Made by a program: the position numbers and the translations under genes | Part shown: positions 5,708 to 35,358 of the stretch, piece by piece | Layout of the letters: each line of letters opens with the position of its first letter | Numbering within the stretch: the stretch's first letter is position 1 | Assembly: GCA_945874225.1 (NCBI GenBank) | Contig: CAMCFT010000001.1 | Span: 62,001 to 126,000, forward strand | DNA: 64,000 nucleotides | Reading direction: 5' to 3' | DNA from: Flavobacterium psychrophilum | GTDB taxonomy: Bacteria > Bacteroidota > Bacteroidia > Flavobacteriales > Flavobacteriaceae | The notes under the pieces: generated by a model | Seen by the model: only the letters and a program-made list of their open reading frames with translations | Databases searched by the model: none | Told to the model about the DNA's origin: nothing

Positions 5708-5889
5708 AATAAGGGGGTTTTTATATTGTTATTTCGTTTTTACTTTCGTTATATGACTCGGGAATACCACAGAATCACGATGTAAAAGTATATAGCATAT
5801 CCCGATTTGAGCAGTGAAAATGGGCGTTTTTGGTAGAATGTAGGCGTTTGATAGTGAATGACCATCAAATCATGGTGAATGGATATTTC

Positions 5890-6813
5890 TTAAATCTCCA
5901 AATAATTGCCATTAGCAAAATCTGAGATAATACCGTCAATATTTTCCTTGTAGGATTTGGAAAATGGTATTTTTGTAGTGGTATTTTTAATATAACATAC
6001 CGCATTTCCTGTGTGAATTCTGGAAATGTAATTGCGGTTTACGATATAACTGTTATGAATTCTAGTAAAAGGAGAAGACAATATCCCTTCAAAATGTTTT
6101 AGTGTTTTGAAAGCCGTAACCATTTCCCCATTATTTAAGTGTATGTCAGTAGAATTATTGTCGGCCTGGAAATAGCAAATATCATTGGCGTCAATGTATC
6201 TATAATCACCATAAGATTTGATACATAATATTAGTGGTTGTTCCACGAGTGGAACTACTTGTTGTGCAAAAGCTTCTGGAATTTGTTCTTTTAAATTCTC
6301 TTGTTTTTCATCGATAGCTAGAGTCTCTTCTTCTATTGGCTCTTGTAAATCATCAGAAGATTGCGGCTGCTCGTCTATGAGTTCTTGAGACTCATTAAAA
6401 ACAGGTTTTTGAACCATAAAAACAGCATCTTCTCCAATCGCTTTTTTTATTTTTAAAATTGATTTTATAAAATCGATGCGTGCCAATGGTCTTAGTATAT
6501 AATCAGCTACTTCATATTGAATGGCTTCGAAAGCCAAATCTTTCTTAGAAGTAGTGATAATAATTTTCGGGATTACTTTCAAATAACGATAAAGCTCGTT
6601 GATAAGCGCCAATGACAAATTACTCGTTTTATCAGTTGGATCAATTTCGAGAAAAATTAATTTTGGAGTGTGTTCTAATATTAGATTTAAACCATCCCTA
6701 TAGTTATTAGCCGATGCTATAAAGACAAGCTCCGAAAAACTATCAGCAATTGCTTTAGTTTTCAAAACACTTTCTTGATCATCGTCAATAATAATGTATG
6801 GCAAATTCATCAA
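5890..6813 (-). CDS. LytTR regulator with degenerate receiver domain
   Basis: A 307-residue protein with a receiver-like domain (about residues 4-125), an acidic Glu/Gln-rich linker (about 140-190) and a LytTR DNA-binding domain (about 205-300, with ANDICYFQADNNSTDIHL and FTRIHNSYIVNRNYISRI). The acidic pair (IIIDDD) is kept. At the expected phospho-acceptor position the sequence reads IFLEIDP, with Glu for Asp, and the usual Lys-Pro reads LRPL, with Arg for Lys. It is therefore likely not phosphorylated in the normal way and may be constitutive or controlled by partner binding. No kinase is adjacent. The start could be either of two consecutive Met codons. Confidence 0.82.
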   Translation of the reverse strand: MMNLPYIIIDDDQESVLKTKAIADSFSELVFIASANNYRDGLNLILEHTPKLIFLEIDPTDKTSNLSLALINELYRYLKVIPKIIITTSKKDLAFEAIQYEVADYILRPLARIDFIKSILKIKKAIGEDAVFMVQKPVFNESQELIDEQPQSSDDLQEPIEEETLAIDEKQENLKEQIPEAFAQQVVPLVEQPLILCIKSYGDYRYIDANDICYFQADNNSTDIHLNNGEMVTAFKTLKHFEGILSSPFTRIHNSYIVNRNYISRIHTGNAVCYIKNTTTKIPFSKSYKENIDGIISDFANGNYLEI

Positions 6814-26118: not shown

Positions 26119-28884
26119 TTATTTAATTTTCTCTTCAAAAGGGATTTCTTCATCCAGAATCTCGTTCAACAACAAAACCATTTGTTCTAAATAATTATTC
26201 AAAATTCCTTCATCAATTATCGTGTTTTCTTCTTTTCCCTGTTTAAAATTGAATGGTAAAAACCCCGATTTCAGGTTTTTGAAAGATATAATTCCAGCTT
26301 CAATTGGTTGTTCTTTTGATTCTTTTTCATACATAAAAGCATATGCCAAAACCTGTATTATTTTGTCGTTTTTGATATCTTGCGTTAAGTCTTTCCACGA
26401 TTTTAAAGTTACACTTGCTTTTTCAACTTTTCCGGTTTTGTAATCTATAATTCGGATGTTTCCATTGCGCTCTTCAATTCGGTCAACTGAACCACCAATT
26501 TTGACGGGAAAAGGCAAACTAGGATGTTCCAAAACCCTTTCGAATCGTTGTTCCAATGCCAGAATTTTTATTGCATCTCCGTTTTTAATGCTTTCCAATT
26601 CTACTTTCAGGAAATTGGAAACATTACGTTTGGCCACTTCAAAAGCCAAAAGATTTCTACCTTTTTTGATTTCACCTTCTTTGTAAACGAGTTTGAATTG
26701 CTTTAGAACTTCATCATCCAAAAGTTTAAAACAACTTAAAATAGCTGCTTCTGATAAAAACTTTCCAATAAAAGGCTCATACAAAACTTTCAAGGTTTCG
26801 TGAATAATCGTTCCTAAAGTATTCAACGCAATGTTTTCCTCTACTTCTTCTACTTCGCTGATGCGCAAAATCTTTTGGAAATAAAACTGAATCGGATTCC
26901 TGATATAACTCGTCAATGCTGATGGTGAAAACCCTTTGTCGGCAATCTCTTTCAATCGCAACATCACTAATTCCGATTTTGGAACAATCATTGGTTGATA
27001 GGCAGTTTCGGGTAAAACAGCATTATAAATTTCGTGAGTCAACGTGTGTTTTGGCTGTTTTTCAACTTCTAATTGCGTGATAAAACGACTTTTTTCACCT
27101 GCATCCAGACCTTCACTTTCCGTGTTATAAATCAAATAAATATTCTTTGCGCGTTGCAATAAATGGTAAAAATGATAGGTGTAAATAGCGTCTTTTTCTT
27201 TGAAAGTCGGCAAACCCAATTCTTTTTTCACATCATACGGAATAAACGAATTTTGTGATTTCCCGGCCGGTAATTTCCCTTCATTCATTGAAGTGATAAT
27301 CACGGTTTCAAAATCCAAAACGCGGCTTTCTAAAACGCCCATAATTTGCAATCCATTCAAAGGTTCTCCTTCGAAAGAAACTTCGGCTAAATCAATTACT
27401 TGCTTGTAAATAGCATAAAGTGTTTCGATTTTATCGATATGAGTATGTTTCGAATAGTAATTAATCAGTTTGTTGATTACTTTGAAAATGGCATAGACAA
27501 AAGATTTGGTGATTTTTTCTTCTTCGTTGTCGTTGCTCAAATTTGTTTTGATTGTTTGCAAAAGACTAGAAATGGTTTCTAAAACCTCCATCGAACCCTT
27601 TTCCCATTTTTGGAATAATAAAAGAAACAAATCACTTGGATTTGGATTCAGTTCCATCAATTTATGATGTGTAATAAAGGTATAATTATTCTGATTGATT
27701 ACATTGACCAATGCACTGGTTTTGGCATAAGGCTCGACCAATGGATGCGTCAAAATATCCAAAACATCTTTGTAATACATAACATAACTTTTGGAATTTC
27801 TTGCCAGGGCATTAGTGTGCATTTTAAACAATTTGGCTATCAAAATCTGTGCGGGATTGTTCTTGCTAGAGTAACCCATAGTAATATTTAGAGCCCCAAC
27901 ACTTGAAGGTAACGAATACAAAAGTGGAACTAATAAGTTTTCCTCTCCAAGAACAACAGCAACTTTATCTAATGTGGCATTCGCATTAGTACTGATAATA
28001 TTTTCAATAATGCTTCCGGCAATTTTGGCTTGACCAATAGTTTTTGGCGTGCCAATAATTTGTATGTTTTTTGATTTTGAAAAGTCATCTACAATCCATT
28101 CAAAAGGATTAGACTTAAAATGTTTCCAGCTTTCTTTGAAACGTCGTACAAATAATCCTGCATCGTGAAACGGATCGTTAAGAAAAGCCTGGTCAATGTC
28201 CCAATAAATCCTGGCTTGATCCGAACCTATTAAATGTTGAACAATTTTTTCTTCAGCAGTATTCAAGGCATTGAAACCCGCAAAAACGAATTGTTTTTCT
28301 TTGATAGAATCCGAAAAATGATCGAGATTGTTTACCGCTTCCCGATAAATTAATCCTTGATAACCAATTCCTTTATTGATTAAATGATTGTAAAGCGATT
28401 GATAATAATTGGGTAACAATTTCCAAAAATCAATATAATTTTCAAGTAACTGGGTTTTGTTTTCGACTTCAATTCCCCATTTTTTAATATCTTCTATATC
28501 TTTTAGATACGAAAGAACGTGTGATGGTACTAATAAGTAGCGGTCAATTTCGTTAAAATCTTGTAAAAGTGTTTTAGCCCAATTGGCAAAGAGTTCAAAA
28601 GATTGTTGGTTTGGTTTTTCAGTAATCGTTAGATAAACTTCATAGAATTCAAATAATAATTCTATTGGATCTATTGTGCGAATGTCTGCAATATCTTGAA
28701 TAAATTCCTCAATACTAATAATCTCTGGAGATAGAATATTGGTATCAACTTGTTTTTTTAAAGCTTCAATCAAAAATATTTTGGCACGCTTGTTTGGTAA
28801 AACTACAATTGTGTTTGATAGTTTTTCTGAATAATCATCAATTAAAACTTTTGCGATTTTATCTAAAAAAGAAGTATTTGTCAT
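26119..28884 (-). CDS. AddB-like PD-(D/E)XK nuclease of DNA end processing
   Basis: A 921-residue protein resembling the AddB/RexB-type partner of AddAB double-strand-break processing enzymes. The inactive helicase-like N-terminal part (TIVVLPNKRAKIFLIEAL) leads to a C-terminal nuclease (about 630-900) with FSPSALTSYIRNPIQFYFQKIL and GGSVDRIEERNGNIRIIDYKTGKV, the PD-(D/E)XK core. The addA-like gene lies 3 kb away on the same strand. I start at the ATG at 28884 because the nine extra codons upstream lie inside the ompA terminator. Confidence 0.85.
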   Translation of the reverse strand: MTNTSFLDKIAKVLIDDYSEKLSNTIVVLPNKRAKIFLIEALKKQVDTNILSPEIISIEEFIQDIADIRTIDPIELLFEFYEVYLTITEKPNQQSFELFANWAKTLLQDFNEIDRYLLVPSHVLSYLKDIEDIKKWGIEVENKTQLLENYIDFWKLLPNYYQSLYNHLINKGIGYQGLIYREAVNNLDHFSDSIKEKQFVFAGFNALNTAEEKIVQHLIGSDQARIYWDIDQAFLNDPFHDAGLFVRRFKESWKHFKSNPFEWIVDDFSKSKNIQIIGTPKTIGQAKIAGSIIENIISTNANATLDKVAVVLGEENLLVPLLYSLPSSVGALNITMGYSSKNNPAQILIAKLFKMHTNALARNSKSYVMYYKDVLDILTHPLVEPYAKTSALVNVINQNNYTFITHHKLMELNPNPSDLFLLLFQKWEKGSMEVLETISSLLQTIKTNLSNDNEEEKITKSFVYAIFKVINKLINYYSKHTHIDKIETLYAIYKQVIDLAEVSFEGEPLNGLQIMGVLESRVLDFETVIITSMNEGKLPAGKSQNSFIPYDVKKELGLPTFKEKDAIYTYHFYHLLQRAKNIYLIYNTESEGLDAGEKSRFITQLEVEKQPKHTLTHEIYNAVLPETAYQPMIVPKSELVMLRLKEIADKGFSPSALTSYIRNPIQFYFQKILRISEVEEVEENIALNTLGTIIHETLKVLYEPFIGKFLSEAAILSCFKLLDDEVLKQFKLVYKEGEIKKGRNLLAFEVAKRNVSNFLKVELESIKNGDAIKILALEQRFERVLEHPSLPFPVKIGGSVDRIEERNGNIRIIDYKTGKVEKASVTLKSWKDLTQDIKNDKIIQVLAYAFMYEKESKEQPIEAGIISFKNLKSGFLPFNFKQGKEENTIIDEGILNNYLEQMVLLLNEILDEEIPFEEKIK

Positions 28885-28895
28885 TCTATAAATAT

Positions 28896-28927
28896 AAAAA
28901 AAGCCATTCAATTAAGAATGGCTTTTT
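28896..28927 (-). terminator. Terminator after ompA
   Basis: AAAAAGCCATTC and GAATGGCTTTTT enclose a short loop (AATTAA). It ends the ompA transcript and lies immediately upstream of the addB start, so addB needs its own promoter or read-through. Confidence 0.85.
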
Positions 28928-31749: not shown

Positions 31750-34700
31750 CTACAAATTTACCACATTGATTTGTTCACCTATATAAATAAGTGCTTTTTT
31801 TACAACTTTATAACCCATTAATTCAATGGCATTTTGATAATTTTCCAATTGTAATTGATATTTAGGATTGTGAGTTCCAGTTTTATAATCCAAAAGGTAA
31901 ACTTCCTTGTTGTTTGTCAAAACCATTCGGTCTGGCTTGATGGTTTTGCCTTCTTTTTGAATAATCGTTTGCTCATTCAAAACTTCGTTTCCTTCGGCAA
32001 AATAAGTTGAAAGTTCCGAGTGATTTACGATTTCCTGAATGGTTTTATAAACCACTTCTTTTTGATTAATGGTAATTAATCCACTTTCGACGGCTTTTAT
32101 AATGGCTAAATCAACATCGTTTTTCGTCTTCACAAAAGCTAAAATCTCGTGAACTACATTTCCATATTCTATAGCTTCTTGCTGATGTGTTCCCCACATT
32201 AAAGCTTCTCTTTGTGCGATTTTAATGTTTCTTGGATTCAAAATCTCCGAAACTAAAGGGATGGTTTTTAATGTATCAATGTGTTTTGTCTCGTCTGACA
32301 ATTTGGTCGGGTTTCCAAATTCGTATTCCAGCTGATCTTCGTCAAATTGTCCTTTGTTAACCAAATAATTGACAAAAAAAGCAGCCATATTATTCTTTTT
32401 CACAACACCTTTAGAATCCAAATTCATATTCGAAATCACATACAATTGTTCTTCGGCTCGAGTCAAAGCCACGTATAAAATATTAATATTGTCTAATAAT
32501 TCTTCCTGTGACTTTAGACTGTAAACAGCTTTTGCCGTTTCTCCAAAACCTTCTACCGCCTTGCTATTATCTATTAAAACTTTCGGCAGTCCAAAATCCT
32601 CTACTTCTGTGTCAATCCATAATTTATTTTTTGGACTGCGACTATAATCTTCATCGGCAAATGGCATAATCACAACCGGGAATTCCAATCCTTTTGAGGT
32701 ATGAATTGTCATTATCCGAACTGCATTATTACCTTCGGGCGATGGAATGCTAAATTTCTCCGAATTTTTGTCCCAATAATTTAAAAAGTCTGATATTCCA
32801 GCTTGGTTGCGAATATCTCGTTCGAGTACGATGTCTAGAAAATATTGAACGTAAGCATTCCCCTCCCCGGCCCTCCCCGAAGGGAAGGGAGACGAAATTG
32901 GCAGGTTGGAATTTTGAAATATTTCTTGTTCCTTTAATTCTAGTTGGATTTTATTTAGGACGTTATGAATATTCGTTAAAACTTCATTATTAGTAAATCG
33001 AATTACTTTATATCCTAATTCATTTAGAATGATTGTTCGTTCATTATCTAATTGAATTTGCTCTTCGGTAAAATGATAATCTCCATCAACTTCGATTATT
33101 AATTTTTTTGACAAACAGACAAAATCAACAATAAAATCATCTATTAAATGCTGTTGCCTAAACTTATAATCTAAAACTTGTGATTTTAGCTCTGACCATA
33201 ATATTTTTTCTGCAACTGTTGGATTTTTCCTCATTTCTTGGGCCTTTTCTATCAACAAATGAGAATAATTTCCACCAGTCATATATCCTAACTTTCGGAT
33301 TTCGTCTCCTTCTCCTTTGGAGGAGGCTGGGAGGAGGAACTTCGAAACGATAATTTCTACCGCTTCATACAATGATTTTTTTCTGATGTTTTGAAAAGAT
33401 AAGCTAACATCAAAACTCTCAAGCCAGTTCTCGAAATCCATTTCATTTACATTAGCCATTCCTTGTGCTATAAAATCGTGAATTGGAAATTTGTCTTGGC
33501 TATTTTGCGCTAAATAATGCAAAAAATAGGCTTTTGATTCTTTATCTGAATTGTTTTTTAAGTACTTTAATAAATGGATTATGAATCGAACTTCGGTGGC
33601 ATTTTTAATCATCAACGTTTCTGAAGACAAAAGCGGAATTCCTTGCTCCGTTAAATAATTGGCAACAGCAATTCCTTGTTTGCGTTTTCGGGTCAAAATA
33701 ACAATGTCCTTATATTCAAAACCCTGTTTCACTGCTTTTTGAATGGTGTTTAAAGTCGCCAAAACATACAATTCTGTTTTACCCAAAGCCTCTTCGTCAT
33801 CTTCGCTTTCTTCTGTTTTTGGGATAAAAGAAATATTTACATAACCACCTGTTTTAGCATTGCTTTTTTGATAGCTATGATTGGCATACAAATCCTTGTA
33901 ATCTTCGTGTTCGAATTCATTGGACAACAATTGAAAAAAGTCATTATTGAATTCGATTATTTGCGAATAAGAACGGTAATTTTTATCTAAATGAAATAAC
34001 TCGTTTTTATGATTTTTGAAAGCATTTTGGTCTTTGCTCAACGCAATAAACTGTTCTGCTTTGCCTCCTCGCCAACGGTAAATGGACTGCTTTGGGTCGC
34101 CCACAATCATTAAAGTCCCTTTTTCTCCGTTTTCTTCTCCATCCAATGAGTTTCCAATAAGCGGAATCAGGTTTTGCCATTGCATTTCGGAAGTATCCTG
34201 AAATTCATCGATAAAAAAATGACGATAACGCTCCCCCAATCTTTCGTAGATAAATGGTGCCGGTTGGTTTTGAATTTCCCGATGAATAATGGCGTTAAAT
34301 TCGGAAATGGAAAGCACATTTTGTTCGCTTTGAATTTTTGCCAATTCATTGCTGACGGTATTTAGCAACGATAATGGCGTTATATTTTTTAGGAATGCTT
34401 TATAGAAATCTCGCTTTTCGAAGTTTTTATAAACAGTGTCGAGAATTTGCAATAATTCAGGGATAATATTTTCGATTAAAGCGCCGTCTTTGGCGGTTTT
34501 ATTGATTTTTATATCATCTGGTTCGTGGTAGGTTTTATTTTTTGGATTAAATTTTCCTTCCTGAATGCTTTGCAAATGTTTAGGAAAATAAGCTCCTGAA
34601 AAGGATTTTGTATCAATTCCATTTTTCTCAATTAACAACAAAGCGCTTTCGGCAAAAGTTGCATTTTCTTTTTCCAAAACTTTGCAGGCTTCTGCTAGTT

Positions 34701-35358
34701 TCTTTTTTATTTCGACAAATTCGGTGATGGATTTATCTTGAAAATGGGTGATTTCATTTCGGTTATTTTCATTGAGAACCAAACGACCCGTTTCGAGAAT
34801 CTCACGAGAAATATCCCAAGATTTATCGTCATCGGTTTTTTCCATTGTGAAATCGATGAGCAATTTGGTCAAGGTTTCGTCTTCGCCAGCTTGAGCAATA
34901 ATGGCGTCGACGGCTTCGACGAGCAGGTTTTCGGTGTCTAATGTTACTTCAAAAGTCATTGGCAAACCTAAATCGTGGGCAAACGCCCGAATTACTTTGT
35001 GGGTAAATTTATCAATGGTGGAAATATCAAAAGCAGCATAATTATGAATAATATGCTTGATGATTTGCTGAGATTTGGTTTTGATTTGGATTAGGGAAAG
35101 CTGGGTTTCTATTGCCAAATGTTGCATTAAATCCTGGGCTTTTTCGCTTGGATTGTCTTTTGAAAACTCGGATAAACTGCCTACGATTCTACTTTTCATT
35201 TCGTGAACCGCTTTGTTGGTAAACGTGATGGCGAGAATGTTGCGATAGGCATCGTTTTTCTTGGCAACAAGAATGATTTTTAGGTATTCTTTGACGAGCG
35301 CATAGGTTTTTCCGGAACCTGCCGATGCGTCGTATATGGAGAATGAGGGTCTTTGCAT
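31750..35358 (-). CDS. AddA-like UvrD helicase-nuclease with in-frame DUF559 insertion
   Basis: A 1202-residue superfamily 1 helicase with a C-terminal nuclease, probably the AddA-like partner of the AddB-like protein in double-strand-break repair. Motifs: Walker A DASAGSGKTYALVKEY near the N-terminus, DEFQDTSEMQW, GDPKQSIYRWRGGKA, MTIHTSKGLEFPVV, LYVALTRAEEQLYV, and a PD-(D/E)XK nuclease near the end (LLDYKTGTHNPKYQLQLENY). Residues 675-833 do not belong to the helicase: they form a DUF559 domain flanked by low-complexity Ser/Gly/Pro linkers encoded by inverted repeats. Without them the protein would be 1043 residues. The frame is kept across both junctions, so the enzyme may still be made. 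Confidence 0.9.
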   Translation of the reverse strand: MQRPSFSIYDASAGSGKTYALVKEYLKIILVAKKNDAYRNILAITFTNKAVHEMKSRIVGSLSEFSKDNPSEKAQDLMQHLAIETQLSLIQIKTKSQQIIKHIIHNYAAFDISTIDKFTHKVIRAFAHDLGLPMTFEVTLDTENLLVEAVDAIIAQAGEDETLTKLLIDFTMEKTDDDKSWDISREILETGRLVLNENNRNEITHFQDKSITEFVEIKKKLAEACKVLEKENATFAESALLLIEKNGIDTKSFSGAYFPKHLQSIQEGKFNPKNKTYHEPDDIKINKTAKDGALIENIIPELLQILDTVYKNFEKRDFYKAFLKNITPLSLLNTVSNELAKIQSEQNVLSISEFNAIIHREIQNQPAPFIYERLGERYRHFFIDEFQDTSEMQWQNLIPLIGNSLDGEENGEKGTLMIVGDPKQSIYRWRGGKAEQFIALSKDQNAFKNHKNELFHLDKNYRSYSQIIEFNNDFFQLLSNEFEHEDYKDLYANHSYQKSNAKTGGYVNISFIPKTEESEDDEEALGKTELYVLATLNTIQKAVKQGFEYKDIVILTRKRKQGIAVANYLTEQGIPLLSSETLMIKNATEVRFIIHLLKYLKNNSDKESKAYFLHYLAQNSQDKFPIHDFIAQGMANVNEMDFENWLESFDVSLSFQNIRKKSLYEAVEIIVSKFLLPASSKGEGDEIRKLGYMTGGNYSHLLIEKAQEMRKNPTVAEKILWSELKSQVLDYKFRQQHLIDDFIVDFVCLSKKLIIEVDGDYHFTEEQIQLDNERTIILNELGYKVIRFTNNEVLTNIHNVLNKIQLELKEQEIFQNSNLPISSPFPSGRAGEGNAYVQYFLDIVLERDIRNQAGISDFLNYWDKNSEKFSIPSPEGNNAVRIMTIHTSKGLEFPVVIMPFADEDYSRSPKNKLWIDTEVEDFGLPKVLIDNSKAVEGFGETAKAVYSLKSQEELLDNINILYVALTRAEEQLYVISNMNLDSKGVVKKNNMAAFFVNYLVNKGQFDEDQLEYEFGNPTKLSDETKHIDTLKTIPLVSEILNPRNIKIAQREALMWGTHQQEAIEYGNVVHEILAFVKTKNDVDLAIIKAVESGLITINQKEVVYKTIQEIVNHSELSTYFAEGNEVLNEQTIIQKEGKTIKPDRMVLTNNKEVYLLDYKTGTHNPKYQLQLENYQNAIELMGYKVVKKALIYIGEQINVVNL
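32860..32897 (+). repeat. Terminal inverted repeat, left
   Basis: It starts CCCCTCCCCGGCCCTCCCCG and ends GGGAGACGAAA. Compared with the right copy in inverted orientation, roughly three quarters of positions match, including an exact TTTCGTCTCC at the inner end. The repeat itself can fold through CCCTTCGGGG. Confidence 0.75.
32860..33336 (-). mobile_element. In-frame DUF559 element with terminal inverted repeats
   Basis: 477 bp, exactly 159 codons, inside the addA-like gene. The two ends (about 38 bases each) are imperfect inverted repeats rich in G and C. On the gene strand they are translated as LLPASSKGEGDEI at entry and ISSPFPSGRAGEG at exit. Between them lies a DUF559 (Vsr-like PD-(D/E)XK) domain with MRKNPTVAEKILWSELKS, FRQQHLIDDFIVDFVCL, IIEVDGDYH and GYKVIRFTNNEVL. 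No intein splice residues or transposase are seen. It interrupts the region between the QNIRKKSLYEAVEIIVSKF and NAYVQYFLDIVLERD segments of the helicase. I infer mobility from the structure; it has not been demonstrated. Confidence 0.82.
33300..33337 (-). repeat. Terminal inverted repeat, right
   Basis: On the plus strand it starts TTTCGTCTCCTTCTCCTTTG and ends GGCTGGGAGGAGG. It contains its own small hairpin around CTCCTTTGGAGGAG. It mirrors 32860-32897. Confidence 0.75.

Follow-up and report, generated by a model that had tools for sequence, protein, structure and literature searches.

A DUF559 nuclease domain bounded by BoxC/PIT/TM-type repeats lies in frame within a helicase gene of Flavobacterium psychrophilum

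The window, by which we mean the whole 64-kb stretch of Flavobacterium psychrophilum DNA analysed, contains a helicase gene whose reading frame runs through a segment encoding a DUF559 nuclease domain. The features of the locus are as follows.

31750..35358, minus strand: host gene, UvrD/AddA-like helicase, 1202 amino acids including the insert (translation of the open reading frame, Pfam)
32860..33336, minus strand: in-frame DUF559 element, 477 bp, 159 codons, amino acids 675–833 (reading frame, relatives)
32935..33249, minus strand: DUF559 nuclease domain, amino acids 704–808 (Pfam; fold by AlphaFold and Foldseek)
33073..33126, minus strand: putative active-site stretch D-F...E-V-D-G-D-Y-H, amino acids 745–762 (positions counted by hand from the translation)
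33308..33337, plus strand: End 1, the 5' end of the element in the direction of the gene, a Y-R-R triplex/hairpin motif (motif scan)
32860..32889, minus strand: End 2, the 3' end of the element, a second Y-R-R motif of the same dimensions and inverted to End 1 (motif scan)

The preliminary description of this DNA, made from the sequence, had the 477-bp segment as exactly 159 codons open in the helicase frame, and this is what the open reading frame contains. Pfam identifies UvrD-helicase, UvrD_C, and DUF559 domains in the frame, with DUF559 (PF04480) at 113.7 bits against a membership cut-off of 20.6, and it found no Y1_Tnp domain there. As described earlier, splice residues are absent from the junctions, which read LLPASS at the start of the insert and AGEG before NAY at its end, and an intein was therefore rejected. 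A known RNA element or intron was rejected as well, as Rfam returned a single sub-threshold miRNA match (22.3 bits; cut-off 54) between 32500 and 33700. The AlphaFold model of helicase amino acids 500–960 has a mean pLDDT of 48 and is confident over part of the DUF559 stretch only. Near the helicase gene, a large open reading frame (26119–28911) gives the impression of an AddB-type partner.

The ends of the element were located with a scanner for Y-R-R intrastrand triplex motifs, which consist of a pyrimidine block, a loop, a complementary purine block, a spacer, and a mirror-image third purine block. Two such motifs occur in the whole window, and these are the two element ends; five block-shuffled windows gave 1, 0, 0, 0, and 0. 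In both ends the blocks are 8 nt long, the loops are 3 and 3, and the hairpin has one mismatch and the third block none, which places them within the limits of BoxC/PIT/TM repeats (stem 6–15 nt, at most one mismatch, loops 1–6). The intergenic placement of the E. coli MG1655 BoxC copies is not found for the window ends, which are in frame inside the helicase gene, and we therefore call them BoxC/TM-type by structure rather than copies of E. coli BoxC. The proposal that the ends form an inverted repeat held up: their alignment score of 53 compares with a maximum of 51 reached by 2000 pairs drawn at random from the window with matching geometry, which exceeds chance, though not by far by this alignment measure. 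The exact sequence once taken as the signature of the element, TTTCGTCTCC (at 33300, with a reversed copy at 32888), did not survive comparison. It is not kept in relatives, and we consider it incidental. What the ends have in common is, as these comparisons indicate, a structural motif whose sequence varies from genome to genome.

CGTC occurs at both window ends, and membership of the CGTC REPs was considered for this reason. These REPs are characterized by a CGTC tag, a stem of 8–9 bp starting with complementary A/T, and a CCA tail, according to the available part of one report (PMC3733652). The window-end stems start instead with TCC/CCC, and CGTC is not kept in relatives, so that membership was rejected. 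The ends had also been thought specially translatable. The two window units are indeed free of stops in all six frames, but over many units the lack of stops is slight, with stops in 185 of 798 frames (23%) of 133 end units as compared with 1241 of 3990 frames (31%) of random segments. In three helicase-site elements (L002, L007, and L017), a second palindrome of the CCCGA...TCGGG type is nested in one end repeat.

Searching genome contigs with the 159-amino acid insert yielded 30 loci. Of these, 19 (L001–L018 and L023) represent this helicase site, either in Flavobacterium or in Bacteroidetes bins that are unassigned. Insert-bearing helicase frames, 1204–1286 amino acids in length, occur in at least 8 of 121 Flavobacterium genomes drawn, a count that leaves out the best rows of G030, G057, G081, G092, and G103. 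Most other listed Flavobacterium helicase frames are ~1045–1111 amino acids, and seven are shorter (481–809 amino acids), from contig ends or a stop. The domain is therefore not a fixture of all orthologues, the case that had been named as speaking against insertion; most listed Flavobacterium orthologues lack it. In the closest relative (G009, locus L057), which is 94% identical to the window upstream of the site and 89% identical downstream, the site is empty and has LNLKKS between KF and NAY. L071 carries one 30-bp hairpin at this site, which looks like a fusion of the element's outer left and outer right parts, and L066, L069, and L072 have inverted hairpin pairs of 85–93 bp with no DUF559, the pair in L069 being out of frame and containing a stop. 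The remaining DUF559-free relatives that were read have loops or remnants of 18–42 bp. Alignment of orthologues accordingly brought out empty, solo-hairpin, and hairpin-pair alleles, in keeping with the earlier expectation of an insertion, but not the direct joining of KF to NAY that had been predicted for the uninterrupted form. At least six variable residues separate the two in relatives lacking DUF559, and the insert therefore appears to have replaced a short loop.

With a 6-nt minimum, the triplex motif is present on both strands in 18 of 23 different helicase-site elements and on at least one strand in 22 of 23, and 2 of 22 DUF559-free helicase sites hold one motif. The solo hairpin and hairpin pairs at this site would fit precursors and leftovers equally well. 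No target site duplication was seen between the window and the empty L057, where the loop sequence itself differs between the two. As regards co-conversion beside the insert, the two are 85% identical over the 150 bp that precede the site, a drop that the other relatives show there as well.

On a host-protein tree with 45 tips (23 occupied and 22 unoccupied, after removal of five loci that duplicated others in the same genomes), site occupancy requires 13 changes or more. The sister of the window on this tree is the empty L057 (support 100/100), and the occupancy label is not significantly clustered, with 69 of 500 shuffles as low. The element tree mostly follows the host tree, which suggests that the element is old at the helicase site. 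It pairs the window with L001 (99/98), while the host tree puts the window with L057, L059, and L002 (100/99), and this conflict points to some lateral movement or recombination. Because the closest relative is empty, at least 8 of 121 genomes are occupied, and at least 13 changes are needed, the window segment is, by comparison with its relatives, an insertion. The element is probably old at this site, often lost, and sometimes exchanged, with few clear gains.

Units of repeat, DUF559, and repeat are also found elsewhere, some in frame within unrelated genes and others as separate small frames. The expectation that DUF559 with similar ends would be found in other host genes is thus supported. 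Among the 30 loci, DUF559 is in frame in leucyl-tRNA synthetase (LeuRS) in eight (L019–L022 and L024–L027) and in an isoleucyl-type tRNA synthetase in L028, and forms small separate frames in L029 and L030. Pfam-confirmed hosts include class I tRNA synthetases, RecG, MetH, and methylmalonyl-CoA mutase; HsdR, HsdM, Eco57I-like enzymes, and Type ISP enzymes; and Sua5, an FtsJ-type methyltransferase, an M23 peptidase, and an L,D-transpeptidase domain. Pfam also places DUF559 at a second LeuRS site (L142), in another UvrD-type helicase (L139), and at the C-terminus of N-formylglutamate amidohydrolase; further copies in RecG, MetH, LeuRS, HsdR, and HsdM were assigned by sequence likeness. Most in-frame inserts have hairpin-coded Pro/Ser/Gly-rich linkers on both sides, with exceptions such as the RecG of L155 and L044. 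In Flavobacterium, LeuRS contains DUF559 in at least 5 of 81 genomes (G001, G032, G035, G038, and G069) and likely in G023 and G051, and 25 of 30 LeuRS loci read are without it; end sequences vary between species at one LeuRS position. A DUF559 match is present in 138 of 247 Bacteroidota genomes (102 with E<1e-10) and in 86 of 249 Pseudomonadota genomes (62 with E<1e-10), and at least 30 DUF559 places among the 150 Bacteroidota matches listed are in frames of 600 amino acids or more. Searches of plasmids and phages gave 38 and 3 records, respectively.

Several of these hosts contain other short insertions. At another LeuRS position (~6390–6520 of L027), L026 and L027 have an in-frame hairpin pair that encodes PLPTSP..GGG ... 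PPSGEVGRGSG without DUF559 and resembles a non-autonomous copy. Other short in-frame repeats, of the GTCATTGCGAG...AAGCAATC and GTCATCCCGAGCGCAGTCGAGG types, were seen in the LeuRS CP1 loop of L044/L179, L194, and L203; in L179, such a repeat replaces the left end of the DUF559 element at the CP1 site. The DUF559-bearing tRNA synthetase of L028 additionally contains an in-frame GNAT acetyltransferase (~5810–6240; Pfam Acetyltransf_3, amino acids 558–701), and no hairpin is evident at the edges of this domain.

The DUF559 gene lies between repeats of the BoxC/PIT/TM triplex/hairpin type, which are mostly inverted. We examined the flanks of 114 DUF559 loci, obtained from 128 by dropping 13 duplicate or weak loci and one more whose flank was short or whose score was low. 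Loci L001–L018 and L023, at the helicase site, are not part of this set, in which large frames and multi-copy genomes are over-represented by the choice of stretches and related sites are included. In 76 of the 114 loci, the two flanks form inverted repeats that exceed the 99th percentile for random places within the locus. Left and right flanks taken from different loci also match each other above random (95th percentile 33 versus 24), which we attribute to the motif they have in common. The triplex motif occurs within 200 bp on at least one side of 85 of 114 DUF559 loci versus 21 of 636 random places, and on both sides of 48 of 114 versus 5 of 636; the pair is inverted in 41 of the 48 two-sided loci. 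The scanner found no motif within 200 bp in the other 29, several of which were probably missed because a second hairpin splits the second and third blocks, according to our own reading of the sequences. Such a second small hairpin seems to part the purine blocks in L108, L122, L137, L164, L165, L172, and others, which appears to be a variant end architecture that the scanner misses.

The DUF559 gene of E. coli is ycjD, located between sapF and fabI. By eye, BoxC-like repeats are present downstream of ycjD only, with a different palindrome upstream; in Neisseria gonorrhoeae, BoxC-like repeats are seen by eye on both sides of a DUF559 gene. At least 80% of the ycjD stretch is present in 3361 of 5426 complete E. 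coli genomes. Between sapF and fabI (L212–L215), ycjD with its BoxC-like repeats and an efflux operon alternate between strains, an exchange also described in the available part of PMC12817139. The three strains read that lack ycjD carry the efflux operon at this place and therefore provide no clean empty site.

By profile and predicted fold, the DUF559 nuclease is related to the homing endonuclease I-Bth0305I. Profile searches matched 3hrl (7e-31), which is the N. gonorrhoeae protein ngo0050, and 3r3p, which is I-Bth0305I (2.4e-6). The AlphaFold model of DUF559 has a mean pLDDT of 83.6, and Foldseek matched it to the same two structures (3hrl, 9.5e-8; 3r3p, 6.6e-6) and weakly to Vsr (E 0.03). 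Of 138 sequences, 133 retain the D-F...E-x-[DE]-G...H signature, among them 62 of 65 in-frame copies; it is altered in L023 and L014. The dN/dS of the element is 0.13–0.37 in 11 chosen pairs, as compared with 0.055 and 0.074 in two host pairs, which suggests that the element is kept as a protein under looser constraint than its host. An older survey grouped YcjD with Vsr by profile (PMC1189080, in part). The Caulobacter DUF559 protein VsrA is described as responsible for the SOS response in cells lacking cytosine methyltransferase (PMC12907096, in the portion available), and at least one DUF559 protein therefore appears to act on DNA in vivo.

The repeats are also linked to DUF559 at the level of genomes. 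Of 249 Pseudomonadota genomes, 70 contain the hairpin core CCCTCTCCC-N2-8-GGGAGAGGG, with 2084 copies in total, against 2 occurrences of a scrambled hairpin of the same composition. Two or more copies are present in 42 of 62 genomes with a strong DUF559 match, 3 of 24 with a weak match, and 8 of 163 with none (11 of 187 without a strong match; odds ratio 33.6, P 3e-22, a P value overstated, as is that for Bacteroidota, because the pattern was picked after viewing DUF559 flanks and the genomes are related). Some counted copies are the DUF559 flanks themselves. At five or more copies, the figures are 34 of 62 versus 10 of 187. A shorter pattern in Bacteroidota gave 38 of 102, 2 of 36, and 7 of 109 for strong, weak, and no match, respectively (odds ratio 9.0, P 1.3e-9). 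The correspondence is incomplete: among the 62 Pseudomonadota genomes with a strong DUF559 match, 20 contain the searched hairpin once or not at all, and the 8 DUF559-free genomes with at least two copies have up to 107.

BoxC/PIT/TM-type repeats occur without DUF559 as well, either singly or in short inverted pairs. A 400-kb sample of G392, taken at even steps, contains 66 triplex motifs versus 1 in shuffled sequence, and inverted pairs 32–93 bp apart are common and lack DUF559. All three motif pairs 300–700 bp apart in this sample (two inverted, one same-strand) contain DUF559, two pairs 1.0–1.3 kb apart do not, and a fourth DUF559 place (2992476) gave no scanner motif pair. In G588, G290, and G326, hairpin pairs 438–453 bp apart bracket DUF559 matches. 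G426 has 15 motifs in 400 kb versus 4 in shuffled sequence and no gene-sized pair. Gene-sized pairs with DUF559 together with bare short pairs are what one would expect to see if an autonomous element were accompanied by non-autonomous kin. G392 also has a tandem array of same-strand triplex motifs ~150–180 bp apart (L255, 6430–7490).

Taken singly, the components of this arrangement are already known: the repeat and the nuclease family, homing nucleases, REP/RAYT systems, and palindromic inserts that stay in frame. Knowledge of BoxC/PIT/TM repeats goes back to the 1990s. They are reported from >260 genomes, with 23 copies in E. coli MG1655 that are always intergenic; the E. coli motif forms a triplex in vitro, its loci are variable, and its gene contexts revealed no mobility activity (PMC4666352). 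The ends described here resemble these repeats in the three-block Y-R-R motif and its dimensions and in occurring as solos and inverted pairs; unlike the intergenic MG1655 copies, which are described without any mobility gene, they bound DUF559 and lie in frame in a gene. The type member of the EDxHD homing family, I-Bth0305I, is an intron protein that has a long target and additional DNA-binding parts (PMC3943268). The window protein shares homology, fold, and E-x-D...H...D with it, whereas DUF559 is compact, in no intron or intein, and bounded by repeats. REP/RAYT systems similarly combine numerous short palindromes and inverted dimers with an enzyme gene that has these repeats on its flanks; here the enzyme is DUF559 rather than a Y1 transposase, a GTAG tag is absent, and the motif has a third block. 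Rickettsia palindromic elements and intragenic REPs are likewise translated in frame, several in repair or tRNA-related genes, but a nuclease domain is not mentioned for them (both comparisons from the available part of PMC3733652). Within the open-licence PMC literature, we found neither a link between DUF559 and BoxC/PIT/TM repeats nor in-frame nuclease elements in essential genes.

We consider it likely that the window segment is a member of a widespread family of nuclease-bearing repeats, with DUF559 as its enzyme and BoxC-type repeats as its non-coding copies; cleavage and mobility are what we infer for it. The DUF559 protein would recognise the repeat and cut at it, whether in duplex form or extruded as a hairpin/triplex, and break repair would then copy the repeat, or repeat, nuclease, and repeat together, into a new site or one holding a solo repeat, in a homing-like manner. 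On this view, DUF559 would act as the autonomous enzyme, with the bare repeats as non-autonomous passengers. In important genes, copies would survive where they preserve the frame within a tolerant loop, and would be translated as an extra tethered domain. Such survival would need no special design, because the repeat is mildly stop-poor and frame-breaking insertions in needed genes are lost.

It is rather unlikely that DUF559 is instead cargo of recombination-prone repeats that spread by slippage, template switching, or an unrelated enzyme and often trap the nuclease gene. Motif instability has been put down to replication effects (PMC4666352, available part), and hairpins are numerous with no strong DUF559 match in G508 (107), G529 (105), and G422 (57), observations that suit cargo; yet, in small numbers, all three gene-sized pairs in G392 and those in G588, G290, and G326 contain DUF559, the active-site signature is kept, and the hairpin is associated with DUF559 (odds ratio 33.6) and not with the transposase domain Y1_Tnp (0.87).

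AddAB-like complexes use nuclease domains, and the helicase could have acquired a second nuclease long ago and put it to use, with the repeats as dead scars. The mostly vertical history at the helicase site, purifying selection, and the active site kept in 62 of 65 in-frame copies agree with such domestication. We nevertheless regard it as very improbable, given that most listed Flavobacterium orthologues lack DUF559, that at least 13 changes are needed on the tree, that the signature is altered in L023 and L014, and that the same domain occurs in tRNA synthetases, MetH, and Sua5, where a role for a nuclease is not evident. Movement of the repeats by a RAYT/IS200-type HUH transposase with DUF559 as bystander is more improbable still, for although the layout is like that of REP dimers and REP-flanked RAYT genes (PMC3733652, available part), the hairpin has no association with Y1_Tnp in the same 249 Pseudomonadota genomes (29 of 143 versus 24 of 106; odds ratio 0.87, P 0.75).

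Taking the nuclease-bearing repeat family as the preferred reading, we lean slightly towards a broader proposal, in which DUF559 would be the missing mobility enzyme of BoxC/PIT/TM repeats across bacteria, a compact EDxHD nuclease that copies the repeats with or without its own gene and survives in essential proteins by being translated through, unspliced. The link gives BoxC/PIT/TM repeats a candidate enzyme and gives DUF559, a common nuclease family of 'unknown function' in Pfam, a candidate substrate. The element offers a candidate for a selfish gene that resides in important proteins and is not spliced out. This matters for the annotation of tRNA synthetases and helicases with a nuclease inside, and bears on the origin of domain insertions. 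The presence of ycjD in E. coli K-12 allows the link between DUF559 and the repeats to be tested.
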